Source: Sphaerolaimus hirsutus
Taxonomy: Eukaryota > Nematoda > Chromadorea > Monhysterida > Sphaerolaimidae
NCBI GenBank assembly: GCA_964036195.1
Contig: CAXIWS010000288.1
Span: 1-64,000, forward strand
Reading direction: 5' to 3'
DNA: 64,000 nucleotides
Below are positions 1,132-37,292 of this stretch, piece after piece. Below the pieces are notes generated by a model. It was not told where the DNA came from and did not search any database. It worked only from the letters and a program-made list of their open reading frames with translations. The position numbers and the translations under genes were made by a program. How positions within the stretch are numbered: the stretch's first letter is position 1; every line of letters starts with the position of its first letter.

Positions 1132-1305
1132 TCAAAAGTCGGAGTCGGAGGATCGTGATGCTGATCTTGTCCTGCGTTTTGGTTCTGGTAGGACCGCTCC
1201 TGTTGTTGGCCGCGCTCCTATCTTAGTGTGCCTGCCGACGCTGCCACTATTGAATTGGTGTGTTTTTCCCAAACCACTACTGTAGTGCAGCTGGACACGA
1301 ATGGC
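1132..1305 (-). CDS. SET-hAT gene exon 31: terminal exon
   Basis: A 58-codon last exon in phase 0 from acceptor AATTCAG (1306 side) to TGA at 1134-1132. It encodes AIRVQLHYSSGLGKTHQF and ends PEPKRRTRSASRSSDSDF. The Arg/Ser-rich basic end could be a nuclear-localisation or phosphorylated tail. It is immediately followed downstream by the AT-rich CGATAT repeat tract. Confidence 0.62.
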   Translation of the reverse strand, partial: AIRVQLHYSSGLGKTHQFNSGSVGRHTKIGARPTTGAVLPEPKRRTRSASRSSDSDF

Positions 1306-4300
1306 CTGAATTGGGGGTGGCATGGTGTGGATCTGGGTACAAAAAAAATGGATCAATGACCGAGTTAAGCACAGGCACAGCACTACTCATCCGAAATTAT
1401 CATCATTTTTTGAAAAATGTGATGATAAATAAAATCACTCCTGTTTTGGTGTCAACTCGATTTTAGTTCAATTTAGGTCGCAGGACAATTTTCAAGTGAA
1501 TGTGCGGCAAAGTCGAGGCGGAATTTATATTGCCATGGCCATGGGCATTTGAACATGGTTTTACAGCCCATAAACTAAAAATTTATGAAAAACTATCGGC
1601 CCAGTTGACATCCGTCCTGCAACCTAAATTGAACTTAAATTGAGTTGACACCGAAACAGTTGACATCCACTGTGTGGAGCGCAAGGACGTATCCAGGGGG
1701 GGGGGCGGGGGGGGGCTGCAGCCCCCCCCCCTTCCCGGGGTGAAACCCAAAAAGTCCCGGAAACTGCAACTTTTCCTATATATTTTCCGATGTTTCTTAA
1801 AAATTTTGCGCGCAAGCGCGCAATGTCGTCCCCATGCATTGTATTTTCAGCGGATCGGCCCCTGTAAACCAATATACTCGGAAATAAAACCCATTTTTGC
1901 GATTTTCGCTGTATATGTATGCATTTTACATACATATAAAGCGGTTCCTGGCGCTGGCGCCAACGCCAATAGCGCCATGGAATGTTGCCTTTGTATGGCG
2001 CTAGCGCCAAAACGCCTCTCCGTCCCTATATAGAGAAAAATTTTAGGGGGGGGGGGCTGAGCCCCCCCCCGTTCGCCGGCCCCTGTAAACAAGCAGCCCC
2101 TCCCCGCTCAAAAATCCTGGATACGTCCCTGGTGGAGCGCCTAATTCGCACCAAAAACTGCATTTTCCTTGATTTTAACAGTCTCACACGCCCCCCTGGA
2201 TACAGCCCTGATACGAATGAAACTTTTCGATACCTGTTGTTTTTTTTCATGATCTTGTTCTTCTGCGTCGGTCTCGTTACTGTCAGTGCTATCGCCGCCA
2301 TCTTCTCCGAAACTATTCTCGACCTCATCAAGGTCGTGACCGGTTTCCTCCAGCAACTCGCTGTACTTCTTCATGGACAATGTCTTTGATCCACCCGAAT
2401 TTTTGCGTTGTCGGTGACAGTTCTCTCTGACGGCCTGCGCTCAAAGTCAGAATGATTAACCGAAATTTTTATTTGAATTATGACGCGTTTCAGTTTGGCA
2501 TTGATAATGATCATAATATACAGTGCCAGATAGGGACGACTGAGGTTTTTTTATAAATAAAAATCAAGCATGGAAATCATTGGAGTAAAAATCGCTCCAG
2601 ATAGATAGATAGATAGCTTGATTCGTTAGGCCTAGGCTTAGGCCTATTCGTTAGATAGCTTAGGCCGATTTGTGGGATAAATAGACAAAAAAGTAGCCTC
2701 TGGGGTAGATAGATAGCTGGCTGATGTGGTGAGGGGGGGGGGGTCACCACTACCCCCAAACCCATTATGTAACCCCTGTTTCGAAACGCACACTAACCGG
2801 CTCGGAGTTTTCTGGCGGGTTGATAGGGGCCTCAGGGTCAGGCGCAGGAACACTGTCAACTACGACCATTTCGTTAAGCTTGACTGGGTGTTCATCGATG
2901 TTCGAAGTGGACACCACCTGAAATTTTGCGATGTTTTCACGTGGTGATTTGGTTACTTCGGACTAGGGTTGGCCGATGTTTTTTTTAAACGTTTTAAAAA
3001 AAAAAAAACGTTTTTTTTTAAAAAAAAACATGACGTCCGAAATGGTTTTTTTTAAAAAAAAACATCGGCCGAAATTTTTAGTACTAAGCACTAGGTATTT
3101 TGCAAAATTTTTGCGCGCAAGCGCGCAATTTCACACACAAATTGACATTGGTGGTTGTTTTCATTGGTTTTGTTGCATTTTTAGTATCAAAACATCCATT
3201 TCTATGTGCTTATTTTTTTTAAAATCGGGGTTGTTAAAAAACCTATTTTTTCCAACTCTGGGGTAGATAGATAGCTGGCTGATGTGGTGAGGGGGGGGGG
3301 GGTCACCACTACAATCAAACCCACTATGTAACCCCTGTTTCAAAACGCACACTAACCGGCTCGGAGTTTTCTGGCGGGTTGATAGGGGCCTCAGGGTCAG
3401 GCGCAGGAACACTGTCAACTACGACCATTTCGTTAAGCTTGACTGGGTGTTCATCGATGTTCGAAGTGGACACCACCTGAAATTGTGCGATGTTTTTATC
3501 GTGATGATTTGGTTACTTCGGTCACTTAAAAATAAGTGATTTTCAAGCTTTTCCAAAGCTCTACACCACAGTATTTAAATACCACAGTAAGCATCAGGCT
3601 GTGTTTACACGGATTCTTTGTGAATGTGACGACAAAAATTGATTTAGTCAACCATGTTTTTGGGTGACACGGCAATTGTTCATGGCAATTTTGACACCGC
3701 TTTTCAAATCAAGCACCTTCACTCAGTAAAATGTGGAAGTGGATGGGTTGTGTGGACTGGACACGTACCGTGTAGTGGATGTGTGTGCCACTATCTGCTT
3801 CCTCTTCCTCCTCATCTGCAGGGTTCTCTGAAATCCCAGTACAAACGGGATCTCTCGCCATTTTGAGCATGTTTTTGCGCAGCGGTCGTCTGAGAAGTTT
3901 GTGACCAAGCGTACCGAGGGGGGCGCACTGAAATATAACAAAGTTTGGTATTAGTGATGGTCAGCCGAAATATTCAAGCATTTTCAGAATAATCGCAGAT
4001 GTACATTGTAAATGCAGATGTCGCAAAGTCAACCACTACCCTACATGCTAGTATATGTGTGTAGTAGCTGCGATGCTATTTGGAGGTAATACGGTAGTCA
4101 ATTTAAATCCATGCGTACAATGCAAAGTCGTATGTCATGTAGCGTACCTTTTTGACAGGCGTGGCCCTCTTCGGTCTTTTACATCCTCGCTGTATGCTTG
4201 CGCCAGCTGTGCTGTCTGTACTGCCACCGCTTTGGTCACTGTCCCTGCTGCAACTCCGGCTCGTGGTTCTGGGCCTGCCTCTGCGCTTCTTGCCTGCCAC

Positions 4301-7300
4301 GCTCTGCCGCATGACCTCCCCCACTTGCAGTGGTGCAGCCTGCGGATAGGTTTATTATGATGGCTTTGGAGGTAAATGCGCATTTGCATGTTGAACTCGG
4401 GGATGTTTCCAGCGTTTTTAAGCGGGTGGCTGCTTGTTCACAGTGGCTGGCGAAAGGGGGGGGGGCTCAGCCCCCCCTACGATTTTACCCTTTGAAGAGA
4501 CAAAATGGCGTTTTGGCGCCGGTGCCATTCATAGGCGCCCGCCAAGGCACTATTGGCATTTGCGCTGGTGCCAACAACCGCTTAAATGTATGCATAAAAA
4601 TATTATGTCTATATTTTTAGAGCGACAAGAACGCCATTCAGTATATTTTAAGGTAAATTTAGGGCGCTTGTACCGATTTGTGCATAAAAGTTATGAGTGG
4701 TGAAAAAAATGCGCGCTTGCACCCAATTTTATCACACAAACGCTTGAAAAATGGTACCAAAAGTAGAATTTTCGTCATCGAGATGTTCAGGTCACACCCC
4801 GGAACGGGGGTTGCTGCAGTGCAGCCCCACACCCTCCCCCACCTTGGATATGCCCCTGGTTGAACTTGACATAAATCAAATCTATTCACTATGTAGTAGT
4901 TGATTTGAACTTAAATTGAAGTACTGTATTTCCTCGAATTACCCATAGGTGGTTTATTTTTTAAGAGTGGAAATTTTGAGGGGGGGCTTATTCGAGGGGG
5001 GGGTATTATTTCGTCAGAAATTTTTGGGAATTTCATAGTAAAGTATGCGCAATTATGTGCCCAAGTATTAATGTAGCTGCTATGCAAACTGACTGTTATA
5101 AATACATCATGTACGTTGCATACATGATGTACATCATTTCAGACGGGGGTATTTCGAGGGGGGTTTATTTTTTCCTCAGTTCGAAAACACCTGGAGGGGT
5201 ATTTCGATGGGGGGTTTATTGAAAAAATACTTTTGCTATCATGAATAAATAAGTGCACTTATCACAGATCCGCACTTCACTCATTTTTTTACACTTTGGT
5301 CTTTACCGACATTTGGAACTAGATGCCTCACATATGGTAAGTTCAATCAACTACTACAACTAACAATTTGCGGTGGTTCATTTTCTTTGTTCACCATCGC
5401 CTGTTGATGTTTCTTCGGTGGTCTGCCGCGGGGTTTTGCAGCTCTCACGTCGGTAGAAAGCGCGGCCTGTTGCTCCTTGTACTTGGTGCTATGCTTCCCA
5501 CCCGCGAAAATTTTTGTCTGTAAAATTTACATTATGAGATTATCTCGCAGTCCCAGGGGTAGGATTGGGGGAGGGTGGCGGAGGTAGGATTCATATGGAT
5601 TGACTTTTTGGGATTGGGATTGGAAACAGCTTTATTAGATGGAAACTCAATCTATTTGAATAATTTTTGGACTACATGTGCAGTAAATGATCACATATAA
5701 ACACCTTCCCGGACAAGTTCACCACCCTTTTTTTGTTTCACTCTGGTTGAAATATCTCTGTCTATGGGGGTGTTATAAAGCTGCAACTTTGGAAAATATA
5801 AGTTTGTAACACGACCCCTCTACTATGCTTCAAATGGCTTCAGTCACGCACTGCTAGAAATTGCCTAGTAGTTGCAAAAAATCAATCTTAAGGTAGCATG
5901 CACTGCTACAGTTGACACAGTTTTTTGTTACAAATAGCCCTACACACACTAGTTTTCACCGTGACTGATCTGAAAACTGAAATGTCATCATGGCGACATT
6001 CAGCCTACCTTTATTGTAAACTTTCTGTTTTTTAGTTTTGAAATTTTCAAAGTTTGACTTTAATTTATTTAAATTCAAATGTAAATTTAATTTAAGAATT
6101 CAACCGTGTTCATTAATTTGCATTTGAGAAATTTTCAGTTTTCACACGGAGTCGCGGCAAAAACTAGTGTGTGTTGCACAATGGGATACACAACTATGAA
6201 TTTTGGTTATGTCAAACAATTTTTTTTAAATTTGAGACATAAAATTTTTCATAAAAACCTAGTAATTTCAGACATAAACAATTGAGGCGTCTAATTCTAA
6301 AAGTCGTCAAGTCCACAAAATGCAATTTTGAGTAAATCGCATTTTAAGTTTCGTCTCCAATTCCAGGTCCGTAGTCCAAATGTCCTCTCATGCTCAACAT
6401 TAAGTTCCAAATGTTAACAATAAAGTGTCAAATTTTCAGGCCCTGCTCTCAACGTACATATATGTGAAAAATTGTCCATAAAATTGTACTCGGACAGAAA
6501 AAAAACTGTTTTGGGGAGTGAGATGGACTTGTCCTTCTTGCACTCGAGAACATTTTTGTTCCTGGGAGGAAGCGGCCGCCTTATGGGAAATTTATGGACT
6601 TGTCGACTTTAAGAAATCGGTGTCCATCGGTAGAAATGAAAATATACACCAAAAGTTGATTTTCCGGGGGTTTTCAGGTCCCACCCCGGGAAGGGGGGGG
6701 GGCTGAGCCCCCCCCTGGATACAGCCCTGCCTCGAAATACTCCTATAATAACTAACTGATGTCATGCGCTGCTCGACGACGTGGGCTGTTGGTTTATTGA
6801 GCAGATCATTCCTGCTGCCATATTCATTGACAACTCGGAAATGATGATCAGAAAACGGAGTTCTCATTGCCCTGGTGTCTATACCAAATTCATCCCCCTT
6901 TGCGTGCACATAGGCCTGAGGATATCCTCTCTGCGCACACTGTTTAATTTGCATCGGGGTCTGAATATGATATTTCGTAAGCGGGGGCAGCTCAATTGGC
7001 GAAACGCCGAGTTTTTTCCGCTTGCATTCTGCGCTGCTTGATCTCACTTTCTCTCCGATGGATCTCCTCACGTTTGAATTCGGCCGTTTTGTTGGTGGCG
7101 CGCTCGATATCGAGTCTCCCATGTTACCGAAGTTGTCGATACGCTGGAAAAGAAAACGTTTTCAGTGTATTCAATTTCAAAACGGATCAGGGGCCAGTTC
7201 CGCCGATTGAGAAGTGAGAAATAAAATGGCAGAATAACATTGGAATAAAACGAAGTCTATTGATGAGTAAACTTGTCAAAAGCGAAGAGGAACTACTTTA

Positions 7301-10300
7301 ATTTACGTCGCTTTTACAATTTTACTTCCCATTTCACTTCACTTTTGTTATTTTATTTAGCTTTATTCAGGGGTATTGTAGATTTGGAGCCCCGAAGGGG
7401 TTCAGATAGATAGTAAATCGCCCCTGCAGAGGGATATATAGCTGCAAAGAATTTGGGGTGGGGGGTTCAATATATAGGCTTTTTTGAGGTTTAGAACCTA
7501 AAAAGGGGAAAAAAAATCGCTAAAATAGGTGAAACATAGCTAAAAATAGGTCAAGGGTAGGTACAGTTAGGTACATAAGCACATAAATAGCCAAAAATAG
7601 ATGAAATTAGGCGATAAGACATACACACGGATGATTTTGAAGGTGAAAATATATAAATAGGTATGAAAAGTAGCGATTTTTAGTGAAAATTAGGGTAAAT
7701 TTCTCAAAAATCGATCCAGGATAGATAGATAGCTGGCGATTGGGGGGGGGGGGGGTTCAGATGATAGTAGCCAAAAATTTCGCCTCGGGATATAAAGCTG
7801 ATCGGCCTCCGGAAAAGATAGATAGCTGGAGCGTTTGGGGGGGGGTAACCGCCCCCAACCCCCCATTACCAGACCCCTGGCTTTATCCATTTTACTTAGC
7901 TTTTGCCATTTTGCTTCGCTTTTGCCATATTTATTCTCTATTTGCGAAACTGGCACCTGGTTGTCAGTTGATGACAAGAAAAATCACCTTTTAATTTTTA
8001 CAGCATTTTTGATTCGATTGGATTTCTGAACATTTGATCAAAATCAATAGTTAAATAGATGAGATGACTCGATCGATGACGATTTAATGGGCTTCACTGT
8101 ATGAAGCAGTCACCAACAGTTATATGTGGTACGCACACAGTAATGCAAACTGGATAAGTCTAGTCCAGTTTTTAGTCTAGTTTTCAACTCTAGTCTCAGT
8201 GCTGAAGCTAAACCAACCATGGTTTCTTTCGCATTGACGACACCAGATGTGCCACTCCCACTGGTCCCTGGTGCCATCACAATTTTGTCATAATCGGCGC
8301 TGTCGGTGATGTCGACATCCACGGCGTTGCCACTGGGGGCGTTTTCGTCATAGCCGCTGAAGTCGTCGAAGTTGTCGTCGTCCTCGGCGCCATCAGCATC
8401 GTCGGTGTCACCAGCAATACTTGTCGATGCAGATGCCTGTGTAAGAAATGTGAATTATTTGATGTCAGGGCACTTTACTGTACCATCGCATTGGTGGTGG
8501 TTGGCCATAAACAAGGGGTGAGGTCAGGCAAATACGACCGACTATTCCGATGGTCCTTAAGTTCCAAATATGCAAGAAAGGCAGTGAATGACCCTTACTA
8601 GTTAAGTGAACACACACTACACACATGCCCATAGTATCCAGGATTTTTAAGTGGGGGGCTGCTTGTTTACGGATGCCGGCGAACGGGGGAGGCCCTCCTA
8701 AAATGGTACCATTCGTGGGCGCCAAGCTTAAAAGCTTGAAATTCATAAAAAAATCTTTACCATTCTGAAGTGCAACACAAATTCAACAACATAGAAATTC
8801 ACCTCATTTTCGGCTGCCTGAGCCTTCTGAGCATCGACTCGCTCACAGGCAATTTCCCAAGCCTTTGCAGCCTCGTTCGACTCATAGGCGGGGGCTTTCA
8901 CTTTGTTGGCTAGCACCAGTTCATCAAGCACTTTGCTCTTATCATTCAAGTCCTTGAAGTACTCGCCTTCATCACCACGACAATCGTCAGGAAAGGGAAC
9001 CCTGTCAAGATCAATCAATTCCTTGGCGAGGTCCTGATTGAGTTTGATCGTTACCTCGGTCGCAAGCTGTGTTGTAGAAAGAACGAGTTGTGAGATGGTA
9101 CATGTAAATATATTTACTTGTGAATGAATCACGCTCATGAATTGTCCCGTATTGATGAGATGATACATAAGTACTGGTGAATAAACCGCGCTTGTGAATT
9201 GTCCAATTATGGCCCCACACACGCTAGTTGACATCGACACCAAATGTCAACTGGTTCTGTTCCTAATTGAATCATTGCATATGAACTTCGTTCGTCCACT
9301 CTTCAGCAAGCTTTGAATCGGGATCGGCACCAATTGACATTTGGTGTCAATGTCAAGTAGCGTGTGTGGGCCCATTGATGAGTTAAGATGCATAAAAAGT
9401 TTTCCGGTTATTAAAAAATAATAATCGAGAAGCAAAATTTCTGATCGAGTTGCACTATGTAGCATGTAGGTATTTTGCATTTTTTTGCGCGCAATTGCTC
9501 ATTTGAGAGAAACAACTTTTGTTACAGACAACCCTGGTCATTGTAAAAAAAACGTTTTTTTCTATCCCAAGACATAAATACCTGCTTCATGCCGAGAGCA
9601 CCACCTCTGTCCGCGGCACTACATTTGCCCGTGATCGAAAAAACGCGCTCCTCGGCTGCGGTCGTAGCCGGCACAGATAAGCAAATGATGGCTACGTCGA
9701 CCAGCACATTCAATCGGATATCCTTTCGCTGAAAATACAATGTCCTCATTTGTATATGCAATATACATGATGTATTTATTACTGCTAAATTGTATCGCAG
9801 CTACACATACTAGTTTGTGCAGCTACCTACGTTTTTATTTCCTAAAATACCCTTTTTGACACATTTTTTTTGTATGTTTTGGGGCATACATGATGTACAT
9901 CATTACATAGGGGGTATTTCGAGGGGGTTTGTTTTTTTCCCCAGCCCATTTTGAGAGGGTAATTCAAGGGGGTATGGTTCAAGGTTATACAGTACTTTTT
10001 GCACTGAGAAAATGTGAACGAAAACTAGGATCGCTTTCATGATAAAATTTCGGCCATTGTCTCAGCTTTGCCGGGGCAAGGCTGGAGTGTATGGCCGCAT
10101 TTACACAGATTTTTGTAATGGCTCAACTTCGCTAAAAAGTGCCATAAGTTGAGTAAAAAGGTTCCAAATTGACAAGAAAAATTGGTTAATTGTACATTCT
10201 ACCTAGGCGAATATACATGTCAAATAGCAGAATTGTGCTTGCAGCTTAGACTTTAAGACTTTTGGAGAATAATTGCTGTTGTCGGACAGTCTCCCGAGTC

Positions 10301-22300: not shown

Positions 22301-25300
22301 TTTTTGTGTGAATGCATAAATATAGAAATATGTACCTAACTCAATTTTTTCACATTGGTTGTTATCGAGTTACGAAACCAAACGCCTTAGAGTATTTTAA
22401 GCAATATTCGTAAATATGTCAGCAATAATGATCCGTTTATGCTACTGTCATTTGTACTTTGTCTGTAGTGTGCACGAATCCTGACAAACATGTGATGAGA
22501 AAAAATCTCACCAGATAGCAACCACATGATAACAAAATTTAAAAAAAATTCACTTGTGAAAAAAACTAGCTTTTTTTGTTTCGGGGTGTTCTCCTCCAAC
22601 TCTTGATGGCTGACCATCCGTTCCATTTCAAGTAAGCGTTTCTGTGGGGCAGAGGTTCCAAAATTGGGAGTGTTGCCAATATGTCTGATGGTGCACGCAT
22701 CGGGTTCAGGGGCCGGACTTTCAGCCACGCTCGCCTGTTGCGATGCTGGTGGATCATCTGACGGTGGCACAACTGAAGTATTGGGGGGGGGGGGGTTGTT
22801 ATATGTTGGCAGACTCAGTGCACGAGGGGGGGGGGCATTTTTAGTGTGCTAATGTGGACTGCGCGCCCTCCCATCCGTGACTCAAATGTGGGTATTTTAC
22901 ATTAACTGAGGGGTCTAGTAGGTCCCCATCAATCGCCTAGCTATCTATTGCAGGAGCGATTAAGTCGCTGTTTGAATCCCCTGGGGTCCGACAAAATCTA
23001 CTAAACCCCTGCATAAACTCACAAATATCGCATCCTGCTTCGACCCGCTGCTGGTGCAAGTTGCCGCAGTGCTCTGCGTCGCAAACAGCGTGCGCAGCGC
23101 CAGCGCCAGCGACAGCGTCAGCGCCAGCGCCAGCGCTAGTGCCAGCGCCATCGGTGCACGCATCGGGTTCAGGGGCCGGACTTTCAGCCACGCTGGCCTG
23201 TTGCGATGCCGGTGGATCATCTGACGGTGGCACAACTGAAGTATTGGGGGGGGGGGGGTTGTTATATGTTGGCAGACTCAGTGCACAAGGGGGGGGGGCA
23301 TTTTTAGTGTGCTAATGTGGACTGCGCGCCCTCCCATCCGTGACTCAAATGTGGGTATTTTACATTAACTGAGGGGTCTAGTAGGGGAGTTATTCCCCAT
23401 CAATCGCCTAGCTATCTATTGCAGGAGCGATTAAGTCGCTGTTTGAATCCCCTGGGGTCCGACAAAATCTACTAAACCCCTGCATAAACTCACAAATATC
23501 GCATCCTGCTTCGACCCGCTGCTGGTGCAAGTTGCCGCAGTGCTCTGCGTCGCAAACAGCGTGCGCAGCGCCAGTGCCAGTGCCAGTGCCAGCGTCAGCG
23601 CCAGCGTCAGCGCCAGCGCCAGCGCTAGTGCCAGCGCCATCGGTGCACGCATCAGGTTCAGGGGCCGGACTTTCAGCCACGCTGGCCTGTTGCGATGCCG
23701 GTGGATCATCTGACGGTGGCACAACTGAAGTATTGGGGGGGGGGGTTGTTATATGTTGGCAGACTCAGTGCACGAGGGGGGGGGGCATTTTTAGTGTGCT
23801 AATGTGGACTGCGCGCCCTCCCATCCGTGACTCAAATGTGGGTATTTTACATTAACTGAGGGGTCTAGTAGGGGAGTTATTCCCCATCAATCGCCTAGCA
23901 TTCTATCGCAGGAGCGATTAAGTCGCTGTTTGTATCCCCTGGGGTCTGACAAAATCTACTAAACCCCTGCATAAACTCACAATAATTGCATCCTGCTTCG
24001 ACCCGCTGCTGGTGCAAGTTGCCGCAGCGCTCTGCGTCGCAAACAGCGTGCGCAGCGCCAGTGCCAGTGCCAGCGCCAGCGCCAGCGACAGTGCCAGCGC
24101 TAGTGCCAGCGCCATCGGTGCACGCATCGGGTTCAGGGGCCGGACTTTCAGCCACGCTGGCCTGTTGCGATGCTGGTGGTTCATCTGACGGCGGCACAAC
24201 TGAAGTATTGGGGGGGGGTTGTTATATGTTGGCAGACTCAGTGCACGAGGGGGGGGGGGCATTTTTAGTGTGCTAATGTGGACTGCGCGCCCTCCCATTC
24301 GTGACTCAAATGCGGGTATTTTACATAAATTGAGGGGTCTAGTAGGAGCAGTTATTCCCCATCAATCGCCTAGCTATATATCGCAGGAGCGATTAAGTCA
24401 CTGTTTGAATTGAATCCCCTGGGGTCCGACAAAATCTACAAAACCCCTGCATAAACTCACAATTATCGCATCCGGCTTTGACCCTCTGCTGGTGCAAGTT
24501 GCCGCAGCGCTCTGCGTCGCAAACAGCGTGCGCAGTGCCAGTGCCAGCGCCAGCGCCAGCGCCAGCGCCAGCGCCAGCGCCAGCGCCAGCGACAGTGCCA
24601 GCGCTAGTGCAAGCGCCATCGGTGCACGCATCGGGTTCAGGGGCCGGACTTTCAGCCACGCTGGCCTGTTGCGATGCTGGTGGTTCATCTGACGGCGGCA
24701 CAACTGAAGTATTGGGGGGGGGGGGTTGTTATATGTTGGCAGACTCAGTGCACAAGGGGGGGGGGCATTTTTAGTGTGCTAATGTGGACTGCGCGCCCTC
24801 CCATTCGTGACTCAAATGCGGGTATTTTACATAAACTGAGGGGTCTAGTAGGAGCAGTTATTCCCCATCAATCGCCTAGCTATATATCGCTATATATCGC
24901 AGGAGCGATTAAGTCACTGTTTGAATTGAATCCCCTGGGGTCCGACAAAATCTACAAAACCCCTGCATAAACTCACAATTATCGCATCCGGCTTTGACCC
25001 GCTGCTGGTGCAAGTTGCCGCAGCGCTCTGCGTCGCAAACAGCGTGCGCAGCGCCAGTGCCATCGCCAGCGACAGTGCCAGCGCCAGCGCCAGCGCTAGT
25101 GCAAGCGCCATCGGTGCACGCATCGGGTTCAGGGGCCGGACTTTCAGCCACGCTCGCCTGTTGCGATGCCGGTGGATCATCTGACGGTGGCACAACTGAA
25201 GTATTGGGGGGGGGGGGTTGTTATATGTTGGCAGACTCAGTGCACAGGGGGAGGCGAGGAGACACTTTTAGTGTGATTATTTCTGTGCACGCTTACTGTA

Positions 25301-28300
25301 TTGGCCAGATACCGAAAAATCATAATAATAATCCCCCCGTTGAAAAATCGCCCTTGATTCGTCCTGTCCCTCAATTATTTACATAATTTTGAGAGGACAT
25401 TATCCAAATATAGACGGCACAATAAATTGTACAGGTTGGCGCAGACAGGCGCACTGTTCAATCTGCTCCCACCTCATCAATTTTGAATGAAAAGTGCTCA
25501 CGTTTGGTATGAATGTAGATAAATACACCCCACTTGTGAAGTGCACGGTGTCATATTGCTGAATTTACACATTGATCAGATCATATGTAAAATAACGTCA
25601 CTCCACATAAGCACCATCACTCATCATTATCAGTGGCAAAACGCTGATGATAATGCAATTTTGCTCAGTCTCATAGAACCATGCAGCTACAAGGATACGC
25701 TGCTGATTTCTCATCTTGAAAATGTCTTCAAAGTGGGACATTTTGCTATTACTGTTGAACGGTATGCACAGCATGCACAGTTTTATCTCCAAATTTGAGC
25801 ACTTGTTTCTATAAAATTGACACGTCAGGAGCAGATTGAAACCATGCGCCACCCTGTATAAACTCACAATTTTTTGGCCTCTTTTTCATCCATGGGAAGT
25901 CTTCCACTGCGTCGGGGTTCCGCTCCCCATAGTCGTAAGCCAGTTCTTCGCCAGCCTTTATATCGCGCAACGCTCTCAACAACAGACACGGTTGACCATT
26001 GTGTGTCATAATTTTCATTCTCAAATTAGGCGGAAAATATTCATCCTTTTCGTGTGAATGATTGATCAAGCGGGCAAAGTGTTGTGGGTTGTCTTCTGTA
26101 GCGTCGACACTGCAAAGTGGTATAAAGCAGAGTTCAACAAATGGCCATTGAAAACCTGACGTTTTTATAGATTGTGTAGCAAAATAAAAATAAAAAGTCA
26201 AGTTTGTAATGTGCAATTTTCCCATGTTCTGGGCGACACTCATAAATTTCGCACAAATCTCCAGTCAGGGGGGGTCATATCAAAATTTACTTGGAATTAG
26301 CAGTGTTGCAAAAACGTATTTACGTTTACCCGAAATACCCGGGTATTTTGGTATCCCCCCCTCCCTCCCTAAAATGCTACCCTCCACTCACCAGCATTTT
26401 TTGTCGTTGTAGGTGAAGTAGTAAAGGTAGCTGTTCGGGTTGTCGGACAACTCGGCTTCTCGCTGTAGGACTGCATTTGCTCCAATAAACAGTACGCCCT
26501 TGTATTCCGCCACCCAGTCGTTGAATTTGATGTCCCGCTTCGTGATGACACCGCGACCTGTTAAAAGGGCGATCGGATATGATATACCTATGTATAGATA
26601 CAAGATGATGCAGTTATAAAAATGAGGCCTGGCCCCTGGATTATTTTACACACCATTTTCGAAAATTTGCCAAATTTTTCAGACATTTCATAAAATTAAA
26701 TTGTGTTAATTGAAATGTTTCCTCATGTTGAATGAAATATGAAATGTTGAATGAAATGCGGTGTGTACTATTTAAAATCATTGTCCCCACAACAAAAAAC
26801 CCCACAATTCCGAAATACACCCCCCATCTTTTGAAATTCATAGGAATTCGTGTAAATCGCTCCACAGCCGCAGCCTAACCCCGCAATTTATATGTTTCAA
26901 TTGCCCACCTGTAATACCATGAAATACAAGCGACTGCTGGACACAATTTGGCGCCCACCAAATTGTTACCAAAATACGCCATTGCCGTTGTCGCCATGGT
27001 ACAGCTCTTCTGAATTGACCAGTGCGACAACGGCGGGCTTTTTGAGTCGCTCCGGGGGGGGAGGGACGGTAATCAATCTATTTGGAGGGACTTATTTGAT
27101 AAACGATTGAAACCTATATATTGCGGGTTGGCTGGTTCCACTTTCCCGCCTTGCATTAGACGACAAAGTGGGTATAAAATATACCATGTTTACCTGGTAT
27201 TTGAAAAAAAGTATTTGACGGAACATAGAAAGTGAATGTGGCAAATGAAACATTCCCCCCTGTCGCCCAGCAATTCTTACATTTTACATTAAATTCTTAC
27301 ATTAAACCCGATCCCTGAAAGCCTGGCACACTGAAAGCGTGGCGGTTTTTACCCAACTGTTACAAGGTAAATACCTTGAAAAGATGTTTACCTTGTAACG
27401 GTTGGGTAAAAACCTTGTAGGGGTATGCAAACCCATACATAAAAGTATGAATGGGTACTAAATCATTGACGAGCACGAAACACCTGCAACAGATTCTTGA
27501 CAATGGTCCTTTCATGCGTGAAACATAATTCATACGGGTTTGGGAATAAAGTTTGGGATGGGCATTACATGGAATGTAATCCATGATGAGCCATCATTTC
27601 TAATCAACTGAACTACCGTATTACCTCGAAATACCCCCATGGGGGTTTATTATTTCGCCAGCAAAATTTGAGGGGGGTTCATTCGAGGGGGGTTTTATTA
27701 TTTCGTCAGAAATTTTCGTAAGGATCATAGTAAATGGTAGGCATTTGCGTACCCAAAATAGGTAATAAATGTGTCCAAACAGGATATATTTGGACATAAA
27801 AACGTAGATAGCTACACAAACTTGTGTATGCAATGCAAATTAACAGTAATATACATCATACATCATTTTACATGAATTTCTCATTATTTTACATTTTTCA
27901 TCTCATCATGTTAAATACAGACCTAAGATTTATCATATTGCATCTTATGACAGGAACGATACACCTGTTTTCCATGTGTAAATACCTAACCCACAAAGGG
28001 ATAAAGTCTCATACAGTGTCATCTCATCTTGGTATCGTGTGGGCTTTGTGGCCAGTGCATTTTTTGATCTCATATTATTCCCGGTACGTCCGGCTATACT
28101 CAAGGAGTGCTCTCGAGTTGCCCATTACAGTCTCATATAGTAACGTTTCATACAGTGTCATTTGATCTTGGGAACGTGTGGGCTTAGTGGCGGATTGCAT
28201 TTTTTCATCTCATATTGTTCCCGGTACGTCCGGCTATGGTCAATGCGGTACACATGGCGCGCAGCGATAATCTGTTCTGTTACTTGCGCATAAACATTTA

Positions 28301-30339
28301 AGGTCAGCCGACTGACACTTCCGCAATGACCGCAATTAGTAAAAAAATTGAAATGATAATTGACAATGGCCATGATAATCCAGCGCTACTGTGTAAGGAC
28401 GTGCAATACAAAAGTAAGGCATCTGTGAAACATTCAATCAAAAAAGTAATTGCACAGTAATGCAAATGCACTACACGCGGCGCGCATCGATAATCTATAG
28501 TTTGCACATAAAAATAAAAGGTCAGCCAACTGAAACTTTTGTAATGACTGCTTCAGAAGGATTAGTAAAAATCGGAAATGATAGTTGACAGTTCGGAAAA
28601 GATAATTGATGTATGCGCAGCAGTGAAACATGAAAAGATCGAAAAATTTGCCAAATTTTTCACAGACATTTCATAAAATTAAATTGTGTTAATTGAAATG
28701 TTTCGTCATGTTGAATGAAATATGAAATGTTGAATGAAATGCGGTGTGTACTATTTAAAATCATTTACCCCACAACAAAAAAAACCCACAATTCCGAAAT
28801 ACACCCCCCATCTTTTGAAATTCATAGGAATTCGTGTAAATCGCTCCACAGCCGCAGCCTAACCCCGCAATTTATATGTTTCAATTGCCCACCTGTAATA
28901 CCATGAAATACAAGCGACTGCTGGACACAATTTGGCGCCCACCAAATTGTTACCAAAATACGCCATTGCCGTTGTCGCCATGGTACAGCTCTTCTGAATT
29001 GACCAGTGCGACAACGGCGGGCTTTTTGAGTCGCTCCGGGGGGGGAGGGACGGTAATCAATCTATTTGGAGGGACTTATTTGATAAACGATTGAAACCTA
29101 TATATTGCGGGTTGGCTGGTTCCACTCCCCCGCCTTGCATTAGACGACAAAGCGGGTATAAAATATACCATGTGTCCATGTTTACCTGGGGTTTGTAAAA
29201 AAGTATTTGACGGAACATAGAAAGTGAATGTGGCAAATTTTTTACATGAATTTCTCATTATTTTACATTTTTTATCTCATCATGTTAAATACAGACCTAA
29301 GATTTATCAGATTGCATCTTATGACAGGAACGATACACCTGTTTTCCCTGTGTAAATACCTAACCCACAAATGGATAAACTTAATCCTATGATAAACTGC
29401 CCTCACCAACGGGGGTGCATCATTTAGCATGCTAGTCACGTAGTATGACTCGGAAATGCACGGTTGGTATGCTGTACTGCCTCATTTCAAGTGCTACTGT
29501 GCTAGAAGTGAATTGAGAAGTGAAATGAAAAGTGAATTGCGAAATAAAAAAGTACAACACACACATGGCAAGTGACAAGAAAATGCTTAAAAAATATATA
29601 ACAAATTCAATTCACATCTAATGCTCATGAAATCCATCTTAAGTATCGCATTTGATGAGCAAGCATGAAATGATTTTATGGTGGCATACAACGTGTAGCT
29701 AGTTGTCATGTCAAGCGATGCCTAAGATCCTAAGTGAGCTTTTTGGCAGCATACTAAACGACTAGCATCCTAAGTGGTCTGGCCTCTCACTAACTGGCAA
29801 ATTGCCCGCGCGTATGACAAATATTCGGTTTGACAAATAGGCGAAAACATATGCAAAACTTATTCGTATGATAAAATTGCGTTTTGATAGAAACATAGGG
29901 AGACGTGAAAACTAGTGTGTGTAGGGCCATTCCCAATAAGTGCAAAAATAGCATGTAACAAAGTGTGCAAAGCTTTCAGGGATCGGGTTTAAAAAAAAAT
30001 TTCGGGACTGCAAAATCCCAAAAAATAATTCTGGGGTCAGGATCGTGATCGCATTTGAACCCTGGAGTCAAATGTAGAAGTAGACAAATCATCAAGAATT
30101 AGCCCACCTTTATAGTCCCTAAATTCCTCAAATTTGCCACGCTCGTCCTGTAGTTCCTGGATCGCCTTCCGTAAATGCTCAGCTGGACAAAACGGCACCC
30201 GCTTTTCTATGCGGATGTGAGTGTTGTAACTGCCATCGTTGCGATTGTGTGATCCAGACGACGTGGATGGTGCATGCGCAGCCCCATACCCACTAGATGT
30301 GGACGCAACTGCAGCTGCGACCTTTTCGGTAGACTGCAT
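1132..30339 (-). CDS. SET-hAT fusion gene, whole model (31 coding exons)
   Basis: Predicted chromatin and transposase fusion protein of about 2079 residues. Exons, from 5' to 3': 30339-30108, 26557-26392, 26109-25868, 25195-24977, 24703-24461, 24199-23981, 23724-23494, 23235-23023, 22772-22567, 21623-21508, 20321-20071, 19734-19627, 18815-18617, 17587-17404, 16955-16836, 15647-15429, 14910-14701, 13854-13582, 12482-12195, 11110-10916, 9728-9582, 9066-8803, 8436-8218, 7143-6757, 5517-5395, 4339-4148, 3927-3769, 3476-3357, 2917-2798, 2434-2234, 1305-1132. Every junction is GT-AG and phase-compatible, and the total is 6240 nt including TGA. Order: SET (about 78-210), duplicated linker (214-588), Cys/His region (658-780), hAT transposase (about 780-1427), tail with AT-hooks (1428-2079). 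Weakest points are the donor after 22567 (CTA then GTTTTT) and the 5' end. The SET part and the hAT part could still be neighbouring genes. Domain identities are firm; the single transcript is inference. Confidence 0.7.
1480..1685. mobile_element. GTTGACATCCA-type MITE fragment
   Basis: Contains GAGTTGACACCGAAACAGTTGACATCCACTGTGTGGAGCGC-type end sequence (about 1636-1683), shared with the longer element at 19180-19610. Intronic to nothing; it lies in intron 30 of the SET-hAT gene. Confidence 0.5.
1684..2135. mobile_element. GGACGTATCCAGG-type MITE with G/C-run interior
   Basis: Begins AGGACGTATCCAGG with a long G run and ends AATCCTGGATACGTCC, an inverted pair. The interior has TTTTGCGCGCAAGCGCGCAA and a GGCGCTGGCGCC-rich stretch. 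Lies in intron 30. Confidence 0.7.
2234..2434 (-). CDS. SET-hAT gene exon 30: acidic exon
   Basis: A 67-codon exon beginning AVRENCHRQRKNSGGSKTLS and continuing into an acidic segment (EVENSFGEDGGDSTDSNETD) ending EKKQQ before donor GTATCG. Phase 0 on both sides. Low-complexity acidic composition, no domain recognised. Confidence 0.65.
2798..2917 (-). CDS. SET-hAT gene exon 29: Pro/Glu-rich exon, copy 2
   Basis: Near-identical duplicate of the exon at 3357-3476, the same 40 codons with the same acceptor and GTTAGT donor. The copies may be used together or alternatively; both are symmetric in phase 0, so either splicing choice keeps the frame. Confidence 0.62.
3357..3476 (-). CDS. SET-hAT gene exon 28: Pro/Glu-rich exon, copy 1
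   Basis: A 40-codon exon, phase 0 on both sides. It encodes VVSTSNIDEHPVKLNEMVVV, then DSVPAPDPEAPINPPENSEP, before donor GTTAGT. It lies in a direct duplication of about 258 bp whose other copy holds the exon at 2798-2917. The reading frame is intact in both copies. Confidence 0.65.
3769..3927 (-). CDS. SET-hAT gene exon 27: basic then acidic segment
   Basis: A 53-codon exon read in the phase-0 frame: basic (HKLLRRPLRKNMLKMARDP), then ENPADEEEEEADSGTHIHYT before donor GTACGT. A second frame is also open across this exon, so frame choice rests on phase continuity with both neighbours. Confidence 0.55.
4148..4339 (-). CDS. SET-hAT gene exon 26: second AT-hook
   Basis: A 64-codon exon containing VAGKKRRGRPRTTSRSCSRD, a second AT-hook-like core (R-R-G-R-P-R), then Ser/Asp/Gly-rich sequence and a basic end RPKRATPVKK before donor GTACGC. 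Phase 0. Two AT-hooks in consecutive exons make a DNA-tethering tail likely. Confidence 0.75.
4921..5235. mobile_element. TACCGTATT-family MITE, degenerate
   Basis: Starts TACTGTATTTCCTCGAATTA, with GAGGGGGG blocks, the internal palindrome GTACATGATGTACATCATT-like motif near 5105-5135, and TTTATTTTTTCCTCAG-type segments. The right end is unclear. Confidence 0.5.
5395..5517 (-). CDS. SET-hAT gene exon 25: first AT-hook
   Basis: A 41-codon exon ending AAKPRGRPPKKHQQAM. The P-R-G-R-P core flanked by Lys is a classical AT-hook, which inserts into the minor groove of AT-rich DNA. Acceptor CAG at 5518, donor GTGAAC at 5394, phase 0 both sides. Confidence 0.75.
5935..6185. mobile_element. ACACACTAGTTTTCACCGTGAC-type MITE
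   Basis: Inverted ends: CCTACACACACTAGTTTTCA on the left and AAAACTAGTGTGTGTTGCAC on the right. A relative lies at 16559-16808, and an end fragment at 29899-29935. Confidence 0.6.
6282..6615. mobile_element. GAGGCGTCTAATTCTAAAAGTCG-type MITE
   Basis: Left end GAGGCGTCTAATTCTAAAAG. The right half carries CCTTATGGGAAATTTATGGACTTGTCGACTTTAAGAAATCGG, which is shared with copies at 11903-12130, 13957-14330 and 58385-58812. Confidence 0.6.
6757..7143 (-). CDS. SET-hAT gene exon 24: large basic tail exon
   Basis: Encodes 129 residues: RIDNFGNMGDSISSAPPTKR, a Lys/Arg/Ser-rich part (SSSAECKRKKLGVSP), then ELPPLTKYHIQTPMQIKQCA and a His/Arg-rich end at QRMTS. Acceptor TTTTCCAG, donor GTTAGT. Coding character and phase 0 fit the model. 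No domain recognised; the basic patches could serve nuclear import or DNA contact. It could also be the first coding exon of a separate downstream gene, since an internal ATG lies at 7122. Confidence 0.65.
8218..9066 (-). CDS. SET-hAT gene exons 22-23: helical then acidic tail
   Basis: Exon 9066-8803 (88 codons) encodes a charged, helix-prone segment with NQDLAKELIDLDRVPF and AAKAWEIACERVDAQKAQAA. Exon 8436-8218 (73 codons) is Asp/Glu-rich (DDADGAEDDDNFDDFSGYDE), then Gly/Ser/Thr-rich to ETM. Both are phase 0, in line with the hAT exons, but hAT transposases normally stop soon after the dimerisation motif, so this is extra sequence. The ends at 8803 (GTGAAT) and 8218 (GTTGGT) are the chosen donors. 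No family recognised. Confidence 0.65.
9211..9373. mobile_element. CCACACACGCTAGTTGACA-type MITE
   Basis: Inverted ends GGCCCCACACACGCTAGTTG and CAAGTAGCGTGTGTGGGCCC, each followed inward by GACACCAAATGTCAA-like sequence. Relatives at 17682-18172, 41790-41958, 45546-45705, 48451-48663, 62153-62355 and 63448-63698. Confidence 0.75.
9582..11110 (-). CDS. SET-hAT gene exons 20-21: hAT C-terminal dimerisation region
   Basis: Exons 11110-10916 and 9728-9582, phase 0. The first has an acidic patch (ESDDDVEEIDVE) and ends SLDPIEHWKKL, the hAT D-P-x-x-x-W segment. The second encodes IICLSVPATTAAEERVFSIT, matching the (L)S-x-P-A-T-(S/T)-A-x-x-E-R-x-F-S signature of the hAT dimerisation domain. Its Glu (about 1404-1405) is the usual third acidic residue. 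The donor after GMKQ is GTATTT. Together with the upstream exons this gives a full-length transposase core. Confidence 0.92.
10090..10510. mobile_element. TTTACACGG-type MITE
   Basis: Inverted ends GCATTTACACAGATTTTTGT and ACAAAATCCGTGTAAACGCG in intron 20. Related ends occur at 3598, 40634-41057 and 48281-48405. Confidence 0.6.
11225..11570. mobile_element. GGACGTACGCAGG-type MITE with G/C runs
   Basis: AAGGACGTACGCAGG plus a G run at the left; AATCCTGCGTACGTCC at the right. It contains GGCGCCAGCGCCA repeats similar to those at 1930-2020 and 52205-52270. Confidence 0.7.
12195..15647 (-). CDS. SET-hAT gene exons 16-19: hAT C-x2-H site and insertion domain
   Basis: Exons 15647-15429, 14910-14701, 13854-13582, 12482-12195, all phase 0. 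The first is very basic and ends WTGCFAHSLQ, the conserved C-x2-H motif of hAT proteins. The second carries a TETRWCSMYY segment, equivalent to the hAT TRWxS motif. The third is the helical insertion domain (ELDRFNVFMEPFASVTKAIQ). The fourth has FWALCTVFDPRYAYL, the hAT LDPRyK-type motif, then a Ser/Thr/Ala-rich end. No stop or frameshift is needed anywhere in this stretch. Confidence 0.88.
15725..16330. mobile_element. TACCGTATT-family MITE cluster
   Basis: Blocks of C runs (CGAACTACCCCC, CGAAATACCCC) and G runs (TTCGAGGGGG), with GTACATGATGTACATCATTC near 16190-16213, ending GAGGTAATATGGTA at 16329. Probably two or more nested copies in intron 15. Confidence 0.65.
16559..16808. mobile_element. 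ACACACTAGTTTTC-type MITE
   Basis: Inverted ends CTACACACACTAGTTTTCGC and AAAACTAGTGTGTGTGTAGG, in intron 15 just upstream of exon 15. Confidence 0.65.
16836..17587 (-). CDS. SET-hAT gene exons 14-15: hAT RNase-H-like catalytic segment
   Basis: Exons 17587-17404 and 16955-16836. The first reads SAKHGESMMCVQAYFFDFQT, then a beta-rich part and ETIAQRFFDCLDDHGITTDK ending KIFR. The second begins VISDNGANMKKGLK. In hAT transposases this is the strand-rich RNase-H-like core, with the second catalytic Asp in a (T/S)DNxxN motif. Here S-D-N-G-A-N is intact at about residue 947. Phase 0 junctions. Confidence 0.9.
18617..19734 (-). CDS. SET-hAT gene exons 12-13: start of hAT transposase core
   Basis: Exons 19734-19627 and 18815-18617. 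The first encodes FWKKRSNVRAYWSSALYKAS, ending at CVPLSF. The second continues VEEKCERAYMRSVL, then YALPSRTFIKKVM and HITVATDIW. The order LSFVE - LPSRxT - T-D-I-W is the typical N-terminal segment of hAT transposases, and the Asp of TDIW (about residue 880) is at the position of the first catalytic Asp. The TG then G split codon makes the Trp. All borders are strong GTGAGT or pyrimidine-AG sites. Confidence 0.9.
19180..19610. mobile_element. GGCGCTCC-TTGACA MITE with internal tandem repeat
   Basis: Left end AGGCGCTCCATACACTGG and right end CCAGTGTGTGTGTGGCGCCT. Four tandem copies of GTCAACTGTTTTGGT follow the left end, and an inner inverted segment (CCATAAACTGAAGATTTATG) lies at the centre. 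Confidence 0.7.
20071..20321 (-). CDS. SET-hAT gene exon 11: BED-like zinc finger second half
   Basis: Encodes FRRHKCVRKAVLTKHFFNVH followed by a basic/Gln-rich segment ending in QQQQER. The spaced H and H in LTKHFFNVHQ match the second half of a BED-type finger, the DNA-binding domain usual at the N-terminus of hAT transposases. The CGFC pair of the previous exon could supply the cysteines. Phase 2 in, phase 1 out with donor GTGAGT; the split codon gives Gln. The position just before the hAT core supports a DNA-binding role. Confidence 0.7.
20826..21197. mobile_element. TACCGTATT-family MITE
   Basis: TACCGTATCACCTCGAAATA at the left and TTCGAGGTAATACGGTA at the right. Internal CCCATGGGGG, GTACATTGCTGCATACATGA and long G runs. 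Intron 10. Confidence 0.8.
21508..21623 (-). CDS. SET-hAT gene exon 10: Cys-rich zinc-binding exon
   Basis: Encodes about 38 residues: a basic start (SDDKQKKWKRNTRW), then IICGFCVDNYCDKHPEA. The C-x2-C-x4-C-x2-H spacing suggests a small zinc site, reminiscent of Cys-rich fingers in transposases (BED or piggyBac-type tails). Phase 0 in, phase 2 out; the donor is a strong GTGAGT, and the split codon forms Ser with the next exon. Treeble-like or BED-like identity is inference. Confidence 0.6.
22567..22772 (-). CDS. SET-hAT gene exon 9: composite linker exon
   Basis: The 5' half repeats the linker exon (VPPSDDPPASQQ through PEPDACT). The 3' half is unrelated and reads IRHIGNTPNFGTSAPQKRLL, then a charged segment ending ENTPKQKKL. 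It looks like a sixth linker copy fused to a single-copy exon. It enters in phase 1; the best exit is phase 0 at CTA followed by GTTTTTTT, a weak donor. An alternative donor is ACAA then GTGAAT at about 22557. This is the least certain splice in the gene. Confidence 0.5.
22590..25260. repeat. Tandem array of six units of about 460-505 bp
   Basis: Six consecutive direct repeats, each with one linker exon, a GCCAGCGCCAGC minisatellite of varying length, a poly-G tract beside TTGTTATATGTTGGCAGACT, and TCGCCTAGCTATCTATTGCAGG. The first unit (22.6-22.8 kb) is fused to other coding sequence. Confidence 0.9.
23023..25195 (-). CDS. SET-hAT gene exons 4-8: five tandemly duplicated linker exons
   Basis: Five exons (25195-24977, 24703-24461, 24199-23981, 23724-23494, 23235-23023) lie in near-identical genomic units of about 475-505 bp. 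All are phase 1 at both ends, so copies can be added or lost without breaking the frame. Each encodes VPPSDDPPASQQASVAESPA, an acidic/Pro stretch, a variable Ala-Gly run from a GCTGGC-type minisatellite, and a C-terminal AHAVCDAE(H/R)CGNLHQQ followed by AGC. The spacing C-x4-C-x3-H-x7-C could bind metal, but I know no family with it. Exon lengths differ (219, 243, 219, 231, 213 nt) by whole codons in the Ala-Gly run. Probably a disordered spacer between SET and the transposase. Confidence 0.75.
25868..26557 (-). CDS. SET-hAT gene exons 2-3: KMT5A-like SET domain
   Basis: Two exons (26557-26392 and 26109-25868) encode a complete SET lysine methyltransferase domain, residues about 78-213. Visible motifs in order: GRGVITKRDI (S-adenosylmethionine-binding GxG), VAEYKG, YLYYFTYN, CCVDAT, RLINHS (the NH motif), LRALRDIKAGEELAYDYGER with the catalytic-region Tyr, then FPWMKK. 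The CVDAT-RLINHS-YDYGER-PWxK order is that of KMT5A/PR-Set7, the histone H4 Lys20 monomethyltransferase family, which also ends shortly after the PW motif. The split codon at the junction (TG then T) restores Cys. Substrate specificity here is unknown. The 3' exon ends T then GTGAGTTTATACAGGG, nearly the donor sequence of the downstream duplicated linker exons. SET identity is very secure. Confidence 0.93.
26661..27246. repeat. Segmental duplication, copy 1 (intron 1 of SET-hAT gene)
   Basis: Nearly identical to 28640-29237, including an open frame starting MFQLPTCNTMKYKRLLD that is conserved in both copies. A second shared block follows: 27866-28005 matches 29239-29379. Confidence 0.85.
27614..27860. 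mobile_element. TACCGTATT-family MITE, truncated
   Basis: Begins TACCGTATTACCTCGAAATA with CCCATGGGGG, TTCGCCAGCAAAATTTGAGG and TTATTTCGTCAGAAATTTTC. The right end is missing where the second duplicated block starts. Confidence 0.65.
28640..29237. repeat. Segmental duplication, copy 2
   Basis: Pairs with 26661-27246. Copy 2 carries an 8-bp insertion near 29170 (GTGTCCAT) and a few substitutions. Lies in intron 1. Confidence 0.85.
30108..30339 (-). CDS. SET-hAT gene exon 1: N-terminal region
   Basis: The first coding exon encodes residues 1-77 from ATG at 30339, with A at -3. It is Ser/Ala/Gly-rich, then charged, and ends FEEFRDYK just before the SET glycine motif. The donor is AAAG then GTGGGC, phase 1, and the split Gly begins the GRG motif with the next exon. 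The frame stays open upstream to an AG at about 30393, so this may be an internal exon with a start further 5'. A pre-SET helical region at this position is usual for KMT5A relatives. Confidence 0.7.
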
Positions 30340-32370: not shown

Positions 32371-32503
32371 CCTAGCTGTTGTTGATTTGAAACCATTTCA
32401 CGTTCACAAGCAGACATTTCATGTTTCGCAGAGACGCAATTGAGGAACCTTGTGGAAACTGCAGCAATTGGCGGATTCCGGGGGATACATACATACCTAC
32501 AAA

Positions 32504-33823
32504 ATGGACGCGAGCACAGGTGGGTTATCTTTCTATATCCGTAAAGGGATTCATTATACTCTGAATAATGTCCCAACCGAACTGCACAAAAATATTTTGA
32601 GCATCAAGGTGCATACATCTTTAGACGCAACCGGTCAACAGAAAACGGAAAGATATCGGAAAATGAATATATTAACTGTATACCTGGAAAATAACATCGG
32701 ATCGGAAAAAGGTTGTCTATCTATCTAGGTATAGATACACAGCACAACTATCCTCTGTCTGTCCTCCCTTTATTTATATATGTCATTTGATGATCAATAA
32801 GTGCAGGGGGTGTTACGAAAATCGTATTGCTTTATGCATACGCATCAACCAATGAACAAAATTTACACCTTAATCTCTCAGATTCCGAAGCGCGCTACGA
32901 GCTGCCGATCTGGCAGCCTCAGATCAACATGCGTTGGTACCCTATGTACCAGAAGACAATCGTGGCGCCGGCCCTAAGGTGCATCATTGACACAAATTAC
33001 GAAAGCGAGATGCACCCTTTTGCCAGCTGCACCAATTGCGGGCACCACATGATGGAGACGGTTGAATTCTATGAAAATCACCTGAATTCGACAAAAGAGG
33101 TCGTCTATCGCATTGGGGGCTTTGGCGCCGAGCTGGAAATACCGGAAATTGGGCGCAATGGTGTGTTGTATGTACATATTTCAAGTAAATGTTTTTCGAA
33201 ATGAAGTTTTTAAAGTTATCTTGTTAAAGTTATCTTTTTTAAAGTTTAATAAAAAAATCTTTTTAAACTTTGTGAAGCCTGTGAAGTTTTTGAAGTCTTT
33301 TGAAGTTTTTGAATTGATCGTAAGCCCTGACAAATCAAATTGAAACTTGCTATACGGCCGATACTAAACTAGTAAAATGGCTCTAAACAATGCTAACATT
33401 CAAAAACAAACATTTTTTTAATAAATAAAACTAAAAATAATAAAAAATGTATATAGATAAACATTCATCCTCTAGAGGAAAAGCCGCAAATAACATTTAA
33501 GCCTTATCATGTGTGTGGAACATGGAAATACCTAGATAGATATAATCTTACCTGCAGGAAATCGCTGGATTCCGAACGGTGAAGACATTCACCTTTTACT
33601 GATGACCACGGACACTGACCAAAAAGGAAATATGGTGAAAATGAGAATCTGCAATGATGCAGCGCATCCGGTCCAGATCGTGTGGATGCTAAGGCCGGAT
33701 GACAAAGGGATGGTGCGTCTGCAGTTGACGATCAACTGCCACCAGTTTAAGGAGCGCTATGGCCAACTGGCCCACGCGCCCACGGGGGGGATCGATGATG
33801 AAGACCCCGAAATTGTTCTCTAA
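32504..33823 (+). CDS. Gene A: 250-residue protein of unknown family
   Basis: Three exons: 32504-32711, 32882-33160, 33558-33823 (TAA). The start ATG has AAA just upstream and G at +4. Both introns are phase 1; the split codons give Asp70 and a Gly in GRNGNRW. The protein is beta-strand-like in texture: HYTLNNVPTELHKNILSIKV; RWYPMYQKTIVAPALRCIID; a Cys/His cluster FASCTNCGHHMMETVEFYEN (C119, C122, H124, H125, possible metal site); a C-terminal PVQIVWMLRPDDKGMVRLQL; and an acidic end GGIDDEDPEIVL. I recognise no family. It is divergent from the SET-hAT gene with about 2.2 kb between starts, and inverted repeats at about 31651 and 35404 enclose it. A short exon at the right edge of the window resembles part of exon 2. 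Confidence 0.75.
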
Positions 33824-36832: not shown

Positions 36833-37292
36833 GGGCGTAAAATTCCAGCGTAAAATTCCATCGCAAAATTGATTACATAAAAGTGGATGATGATACAGGT
36901 CTGCAATTTTTCATGGAGAATATGTTTATCAATACCTTGATTGTGTCCGAGAGTCATCATCCACAGTCACTGCAATTTGATTGTGGAAATTCAAAAATTT
37001 CTATTTTACGCTGGAATTTTACGCCAGCTGAAGAAAAATCAATTCTACGCTATGTCATTGCATGCAATCACCTGGCGTAGAATTGACTTTTCTTCAGCTG
37101 GCGTAAAATTCCAGCGTAAAATAGAAATTTTTGAATTTCCACAATCAAATTGCAGTGACTGTGGATGATGACTCTCGGACACAATCAAGGTATTGATAAA
37201 CATATTCTCCATGAAAAATTGCAGACCTGTATCATCATCCACTTTTATGTAATCAATTTTGCGATGGAATTTTACGCTGGAATTTTACGCCC
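36833..37292. repeat. 460-bp near-perfect palindrome (foldback element)
   Basis: Arms 36833-37050 and 37075-37292 are near-perfect reverse complements with a 24-nt loop. Related, diverged sequence (GTGGATCATGCTACGGGTC) occurs at 62690-62870 and 63710-63930. Confidence 0.92.

Follow-up and report, generated by a model that had tools for sequence, protein, structure and literature searches.

The window analyzed here, the first 64,000 nucleotides of contig CAXIWS010000288.1 of the nematode Sphaerolaimus hirsutus, carries on its minus strand, from position 30339 to 1132, a splice model of 32 exons and 31 introns whose joins are all in phase and free of stop codons. The preliminary description of this range was right about the open, in-phase joining and counted one intron too few (30). 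The acceptors read CAG at 30 of the 31 introns and TAG at the remaining one, and the introns range from 220 to 3550 bases in length, with a median of 518. The resulting frame comprises 2117 amino acids if the donor at 22567 is used and 2101 if the one at 22615 is used. All the SET and hAT motifs named in the preliminary description are indeed encoded on the minus strand within this range, and their positions are given below as mapped in the 2101-residue model. Overall, 19 introns are in phase 0, nine in phase 1, and three in phase 2; the last 17 (17404 to 1332, from after E10 to after E26) are consecutively in phase 0, and the preceding 14 are mixed. The many phase-0 introns in the transposase region suggest intron gain of one kind. 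No tRNA or Rfam matches were found in the window.

The first three exons encode a SET domain. E1 (30108–30339) provides the start codon and the N-terminus, where the KMT5A-like region begins, followed by the first part of the SET domain in E2 (26392–26557; GRGV at residue 78, EYKG at 95) and the second part in E3 (25868–26109; RLINHS at 146, ELAYDYG at 188, and PWMK). Their product matches the Pfam SET family (E = 5.3e-20), and its best relative of solved structure is SETD8/KMT5A (E = 1.3e-25), ahead of 4ldg (1e-20) and KMT2A (1e-9). The best 14 of 90 PDB matches (60 listed) are KMT5A/SETD8 chains scoring 78 to 94 bits, after which come 4ldg at 77.7 bits and KMT2A at 41.8 bits. The catalytic motifs of the SET domain, EYxG, NHS, and ELxYDYG, align residue by residue with those of SETD8. 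Judged by these sequence comparisons, the domain is of the KMT5A type, closest to KMT5A/SETD8, an enzyme that monomethylates H4K20. A protein search with this part recovered two proteins of 212 and 242 amino acids, under length limits that exclude fusions, and neither the SET part nor the hAT part described below has a relative among the viral contigs searched. The catalytic motifs and the PW(L/M)K motif are common to this SET domain and to that of KMT5A/SETD8/PR-Set7; however, KMT5A ends at that motif, whereas the model here runs on through a splice donor for more than 1880 further residues. Immediately after PWMK, E3 offers this donor rather than a stop codon. Reading through it leads to a stop at 25809, 18 residues past the donor codon, and a scan of split points (see below) yielded another possible 3' end for a SET gene at 25598.

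Beyond the SET domain, the model enters a tandem array of linker exons. The five full copies, E4a (24977–25195), E4b (24461–24703), E4c (23981–24199), E4d (23494–23724), and E4e (23023–23235), are 213 to 243 nt long, are each a multiple of three, and have phase 1-1; the last linker exon, E4f (22615–22772), has a new 3' half and ends at the donor at 22615. The array (22690–25275) is built of units of about 487 bp, each with one linker exon and an inner 6-bp repeat of the GCTGGC type. The donors of E3 (25868) and E4a (24977) share ATTGTGAGTTTATRCAGGG, which goes beyond what the splice consensus needs, and the array may have copied the donor of E3. Because two of the three frames are open throughout E4, phase agreement across E4a to E4e is weak evidence for the model. 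The 21 variable sites among the copies divide into six synonymous and 15 nonsynonymous in the used frame versus 8/13 and 3/18 in the other two; hence, pairwise counts (30 synonymous and 30 nonsynonymous), which are not specific to a frame, were discarded as proof that the array is coding. The same applies to exon lengths divisible by three, the inner repeat unit being itself six bases long.

The array is followed by E5 (21876–21932), an uncertain exon of 57 nt, and by a candidate zinc-finger region in E6 (21508–21623; CGFC) and E7 (20071–20321; HFFNVH), which has cysteine and histidine residues in an unusual spacing. Pfam zf-BED gives no match to it up to E = 1, a result compatible with a hAT protein, since two of the three aligned relatives likewise lack a zf-BED match at E 0.001. 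Homology to hAT transposases begins in E8 (19627–19734; PLSF/VEE) and continues through E9 (18617–18815), with the first catalytic aspartate (TDIW, 882); E10 (17404–17587), in the RNase H-like region; E11 (16836–16955), with the second aspartate (SDNGAN, 949); E12 (15429–15647), with an insert and the CxxH motif (CFAH, 1053); E13 (14701–14910; TRW, within TRWCS at 1115); E14 (13582–13854); E15 (12195–12482; DPRY); E16 (10916–11110; DPIEHW); and E17 (9582–9728), with the dimerization region and the catalytic glutamate (EERVFS, 1407). The hAT region ends in E18 (8803–9066), where the tail begins. The insert between SDNGAN and CFAH (16955–15429) comprises about 80 residues, many of them charged, and is absent from the three relatives.

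In Pfam, Dimer_Tnp_hAT (PF05699) is the only transposase family above its cutoff (E = 1.3e-6; 28.5 bits versus a cutoff of 21.4); DUF659 matched below its own cutoff, and no Harbinger or MuDR transposase family matched above cutoff. A protein search with the hAT part returned three relatives (P0003 at E = 1.9e-12), with which E8 to E17 align along the hAT core; one of these database proteins is from the tick Hyalomma asiaticum. The invariant columns of the four-sequence alignment (A1) include D185, D252, C355, H358, R418, W419, E710, and R711; the aspartates of TDIW and SDNGAN, the cysteine and histidine of CxxH, TRW, and the glutamate of ERVFS do not vary in it. A profile of the four sequences, three of whose rows are other proteins, matches Hermes with E = 2e-41, compared with only 0.063 for the window protein alone, and its D, D, and E columns fall on Hermes blocks; the catalytic residues of Hermes are D180, D248, and E572. 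The hAT part has catalytic columns and a C-terminal dimerization region in common with Hermes, and these alignments support a transposase that looks complete, with D, D, and E kept. Proteins of the hAT type bind element ends and dimerize. No SET domain has been described in Hermes or in the hAT-derived ZBED genes, and the latter, as far as the accessible text of their description goes, bear a BED finger (PMC10027918), whereas Pfam detects none here.

The tail of about 580 residues is encoded by the acidic E19 (8218–8436), E20 (6757–7143), E21 (5365–5517), E22 (4148–4339), E23 (3769–3927), E24 (3357–3476), E25 (2798–2917), E26 (2234–2434), and the proposed last exon with the stop codon, E27 (1132–1332), which is uncertain. 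E24 and E25 agree at all 120 bases, and the flanking copies of that duplication differ. E21 and E22 each contain one AT-hook-like motif (KPRGRPPKK at 1748 and KRRGRPRT at 1789, respectively); AT-hooks bind AT-rich DNA. No family matched the tail above its Pfam cutoff, AT_hook reaching 13.2 bits versus the 17.4 required; the Pfam comparison covered 543 tail residues, with one of the two identical 40-residue copies omitted, and the linker with one of its five full copies.

To what extent does this exon series stand up to gene prediction? A gene finder was run on the region without being given the location of the gene, with generic splice matrices and with coding odds that compared 11 exons homologous to SET or hAT proteins (744 codons) with the non-exon sequence of the region. 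Its best unconstrained path is a single gene of 31 exons, 24 of which are identical to exons of the model, and it scores 388 nats on this strand, whereas the other strand of the region yields 42 nats. Together, these figures place the exon model beyond chance; the 11 training exons all lie within the 32-exon model, so that the remaining 21 carry more weight as confirmation. The gene finder omitted E5 and E8, the latter being backed by hAT homology, and left E27, whose coding odds are negative, unused, placing 2025–1934 in its stead; it added one exon of 9 nt, shifted the acceptors of E4a, E4d, E4e, and E4f (starts at 25180, 23709, 23220, and 22757, respectively), and shifted the donors of E4f (to 22615) and E21 (end at 5395). 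As its best path leaves the region inside an intron, the 3' end and the stop at 1132 are unconfirmed. The donor at 22567 (CTA/GTTTTT), through which the preliminary description had run its junction, scores −1.7, at the 24th percentile of the GT sites of the region; we rejected it for the one at 22615 (ATG/GTCAGC), which has the same phase and was preferred by the gene finder.

The central question is whether the two halves belong to one gene. Their domains lie on the same strand in compatible phase, as had been claimed, and a shared product is no more than the likelier reading. A competing explanation, to which we accord an appreciable probability that nonetheless falls clearly short of even, is that two adjacent genes lie on this strand, a KMT5A-like gene ending soon after its SET domain and a hAT-derived gene starting within or after the array at 25.2–22.6 kb. 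With 14 split points allowed in the region 31000–14500, the one-gene model outscores the two-gene model by 5.87 nats. This preference is nondiscriminating because it falls within the range obtained with shuffled spacers (25840–21640), where the one-gene advantage averages 4.97 nats (SD 2.33, maximum 9.75; 60 shuffles, which were incomplete, at 52% identity to the original as checked on the last one). The finder would connect the SET and hAT halves over almost any spacer, and in this respect the score leaves room for two genes. An earlier comparison, in which one forced split cost 17.0 nats versus 0.1 to 13.9 in 25 shuffles, was rejected as proof of a fusion because its single split point for the real sequence differed from the two applied to the shuffled ones; with the same 14 points, the advantage was gone.

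The location of the cheapest split also speaks for two genes: in a scan every 60 bases, it lies at 25560–25200, directly after the SET domain, and costs 5.9 nats. The weakest point of the fusion is thus at 25.6–25.2 kb, close behind SET, and not at the junction singled out in the preliminary description; splits at that junction (22.56–21.6 kb) cost 13.8 to 17 nats, which counts against two genes divided there. In the cheapest split itself, the second gene begins in E4a in another frame and switches frames between the copies, and hence looks contrived. In solved structures, the KMT5A chain stops at PW(L/M)K or shortly past it, a point reached here in E3, and read-through of the E3 donor would give a short C-terminus; against this stands the donor found in place of a stop right after PWMK. 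As for the start of a separate hAT protein, E5 to E8 contain no in-frame methionine, the nearest being at 638 and 641 in E4f and the next at 844 in E9 (2117-residue model). Therefore, unless the frame is wrong, such a protein would have to start in E4f, whose ATG codons could initiate it, or further upstream. The E4 copies are in phase with E3, and so is E4f with E5 and E6, as expected less readily of two genes than of a continuous one. Poly(A) signals on this strand between E3 and E6 are scarce (no AATAAA versus 1.39 expected and one ATTAAA versus 1.42 expected), but with only about 1.4 of each expected, this is of little weight. Taken together, a single protein with both SET and hAT parts is plausible from the sequence, with about as much to be said for it as against it.

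The distribution of repeats bears on whether the gene belongs to the host or to a mobile element. We defined dispersed repeats by comparison of the window with itself (at least 80 bp, E 1e-6), excluding direct repeats within 3.5 kb and with them the E4 and E24/E25 duplications. Such repeats cover none of the 6354 exon bases, 4736 of the 22854 intron bases (21%), and 6912 of the 33661 upstream bases in the window. When the exon map is rotated, only one of 584 positions is equally free of repeats, and the mean overlap is 1023 bases. This fits exons that were kept intact while the introns filled with repeats; since the exons were chosen for openness, it is to be read as support rather than proof. 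Among the repeats of the window are two direct copies of an approximately 590-bp sequence in intron 1 (26662–27246 and 28643–29238; 96% identical); thirteen MITE-like palindromes of at least 120 bp and up to 466 bp, 98% matched (sites include 36830–37295, 40638–41049, 19243–19589, and 10093–10505); and a block of near-identical long direct repeats of up to 700 bp (51270–54898; 97%). Upstream, on the plus strand, 32444–33823 contains three protein-like open frames, none with a significant Pfam match; one of them was compared with solved structures, and nothing significant was found.

An alternative that takes the transposase at face value would see in the locus a large autonomous hAT transposon with a SET domain in its transposase, mobile or recently so, which modifies the chromatin at its own copies. 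The conservation of D, D, and E and the absence of any broken exon in the model are consistent with this, as are the SET genes reported, in the accessible part of one study, from transposons of other superfamilies, HarbingerS and MuDR (PMC12730594). However, a search for inverted ends with a target duplication of 5 to 8 bp flanking the gene gave nothing convincing among 25 loose candidates, with a 3' flank of just 1131 bp; the only candidate with an 8-bp duplication was seen on inspection to fall within a C-rich repeat found more than once in the window. Moreover, 31 introns containing dispersed repeats are unlike a young element, and, exon duplicates aside, the window contains no second copy of the gene. 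Accordingly, we consider such a transposon quite improbable.

The architecture nevertheless has relatives in kind. The closest is SETMAR (Metnase) of anthropoid primates, in which a SET methyltransferase is fused to a DNA transposase downstream, the same order as here (PMC8616336, accessible text). The SET domain of SETMAR is described as acting on H3K36 and its transposase is of the mariner type, whereas a KMT5A-type SET domain is paired with a hAT transposase here. The hAT part here has kept D, D, and E and is followed by an AT-hook tail; on the other hand, SETMAR is an established single protein, whereas the single protein here is only predicted. Host-transposase fusion genes of tetrapods likewise join host chromatin or transcription domains to transposases, and hAT is counted among their most frequent sources in the same article, which cites a survey of 106 fusions; its accessible part names two mariner fusions, SETMAR and KRABINER, but no pairing of SET with hAT (PMC8616336). 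The HarbingerS elements and the SET-carrying MuDR elements of Phytophthora provide a further parallel in associating SET genes with DNA transposases, but they are of other superfamilies, and here the transposase is hAT and no element ends were found (PMC12730594, accessible text). SETMAR is also named in a study that screened ten million eukaryotic proteins for fusion to domains of transposons or viruses, and the accessible portion of its text makes no mention of a SET-hAT case (PMC12062965). More generally, we found no description of a SET-hAT fusion in the abstracts and accessible texts searched. The novelty asserted in the preliminary description, a "new type" of transposase, is an overstatement in view of the SET genes in HarbingerS and MuDR (PMC12730594) and the frequency of hAT fusions in tetrapods (PMC8616336), as far as these partly accessible sources go. 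The same architecture was sought among proteins: none of the 7982 candidates scored, 637 to 2028 amino acids long, contained both parts at E 0.001, with a query of 1159 residues that ran without E4a to E4e and E19 to E27 and with the 22567 donor. As the database appears thin in eukaryotes, judging by the few hits, this result says little about absence of the architecture.

The reading that best accommodates these observations is an intron-rich, probably immobilized SET-hAT fusion gene with a repetitive linker and an AT-hook tail, and we put its chances at about one in two. In such a case, the two halves would share a transcript, and the most likely origin would be a KMT5A-like gene that began splicing to a hAT transposase, the hAT part having afterward stayed put as a host gene with loss of its mobility. 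Brought to DNA, perhaps to relic element ends, by the hAT part and the AT-hooks, the SET domain would methylate a lysine there; by analogy with its family, the product would be H4K20me1. Beyond the assignment of the domains, we infer these steps. A more ambitious reading, a working hAT transposase that permanently carries an H4K20-type monomethylase and AT-hooks and marks the chromatin at the element ends it binds, whether to silence or time its own family or, after adoption by the host, to mark relic ends, appears unlikely to us.

If the SET and hAT parts do form one protein, both the class of methyltransferase and the superfamily of transposase would differ from those of SETMAR, and D, D, and E would have been kept. 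It would mean that histone methylation and transposase DNA binding have been joined more than once, and the gene would offer a test case for the marking of chromatin at element ends by proteins of this kind.
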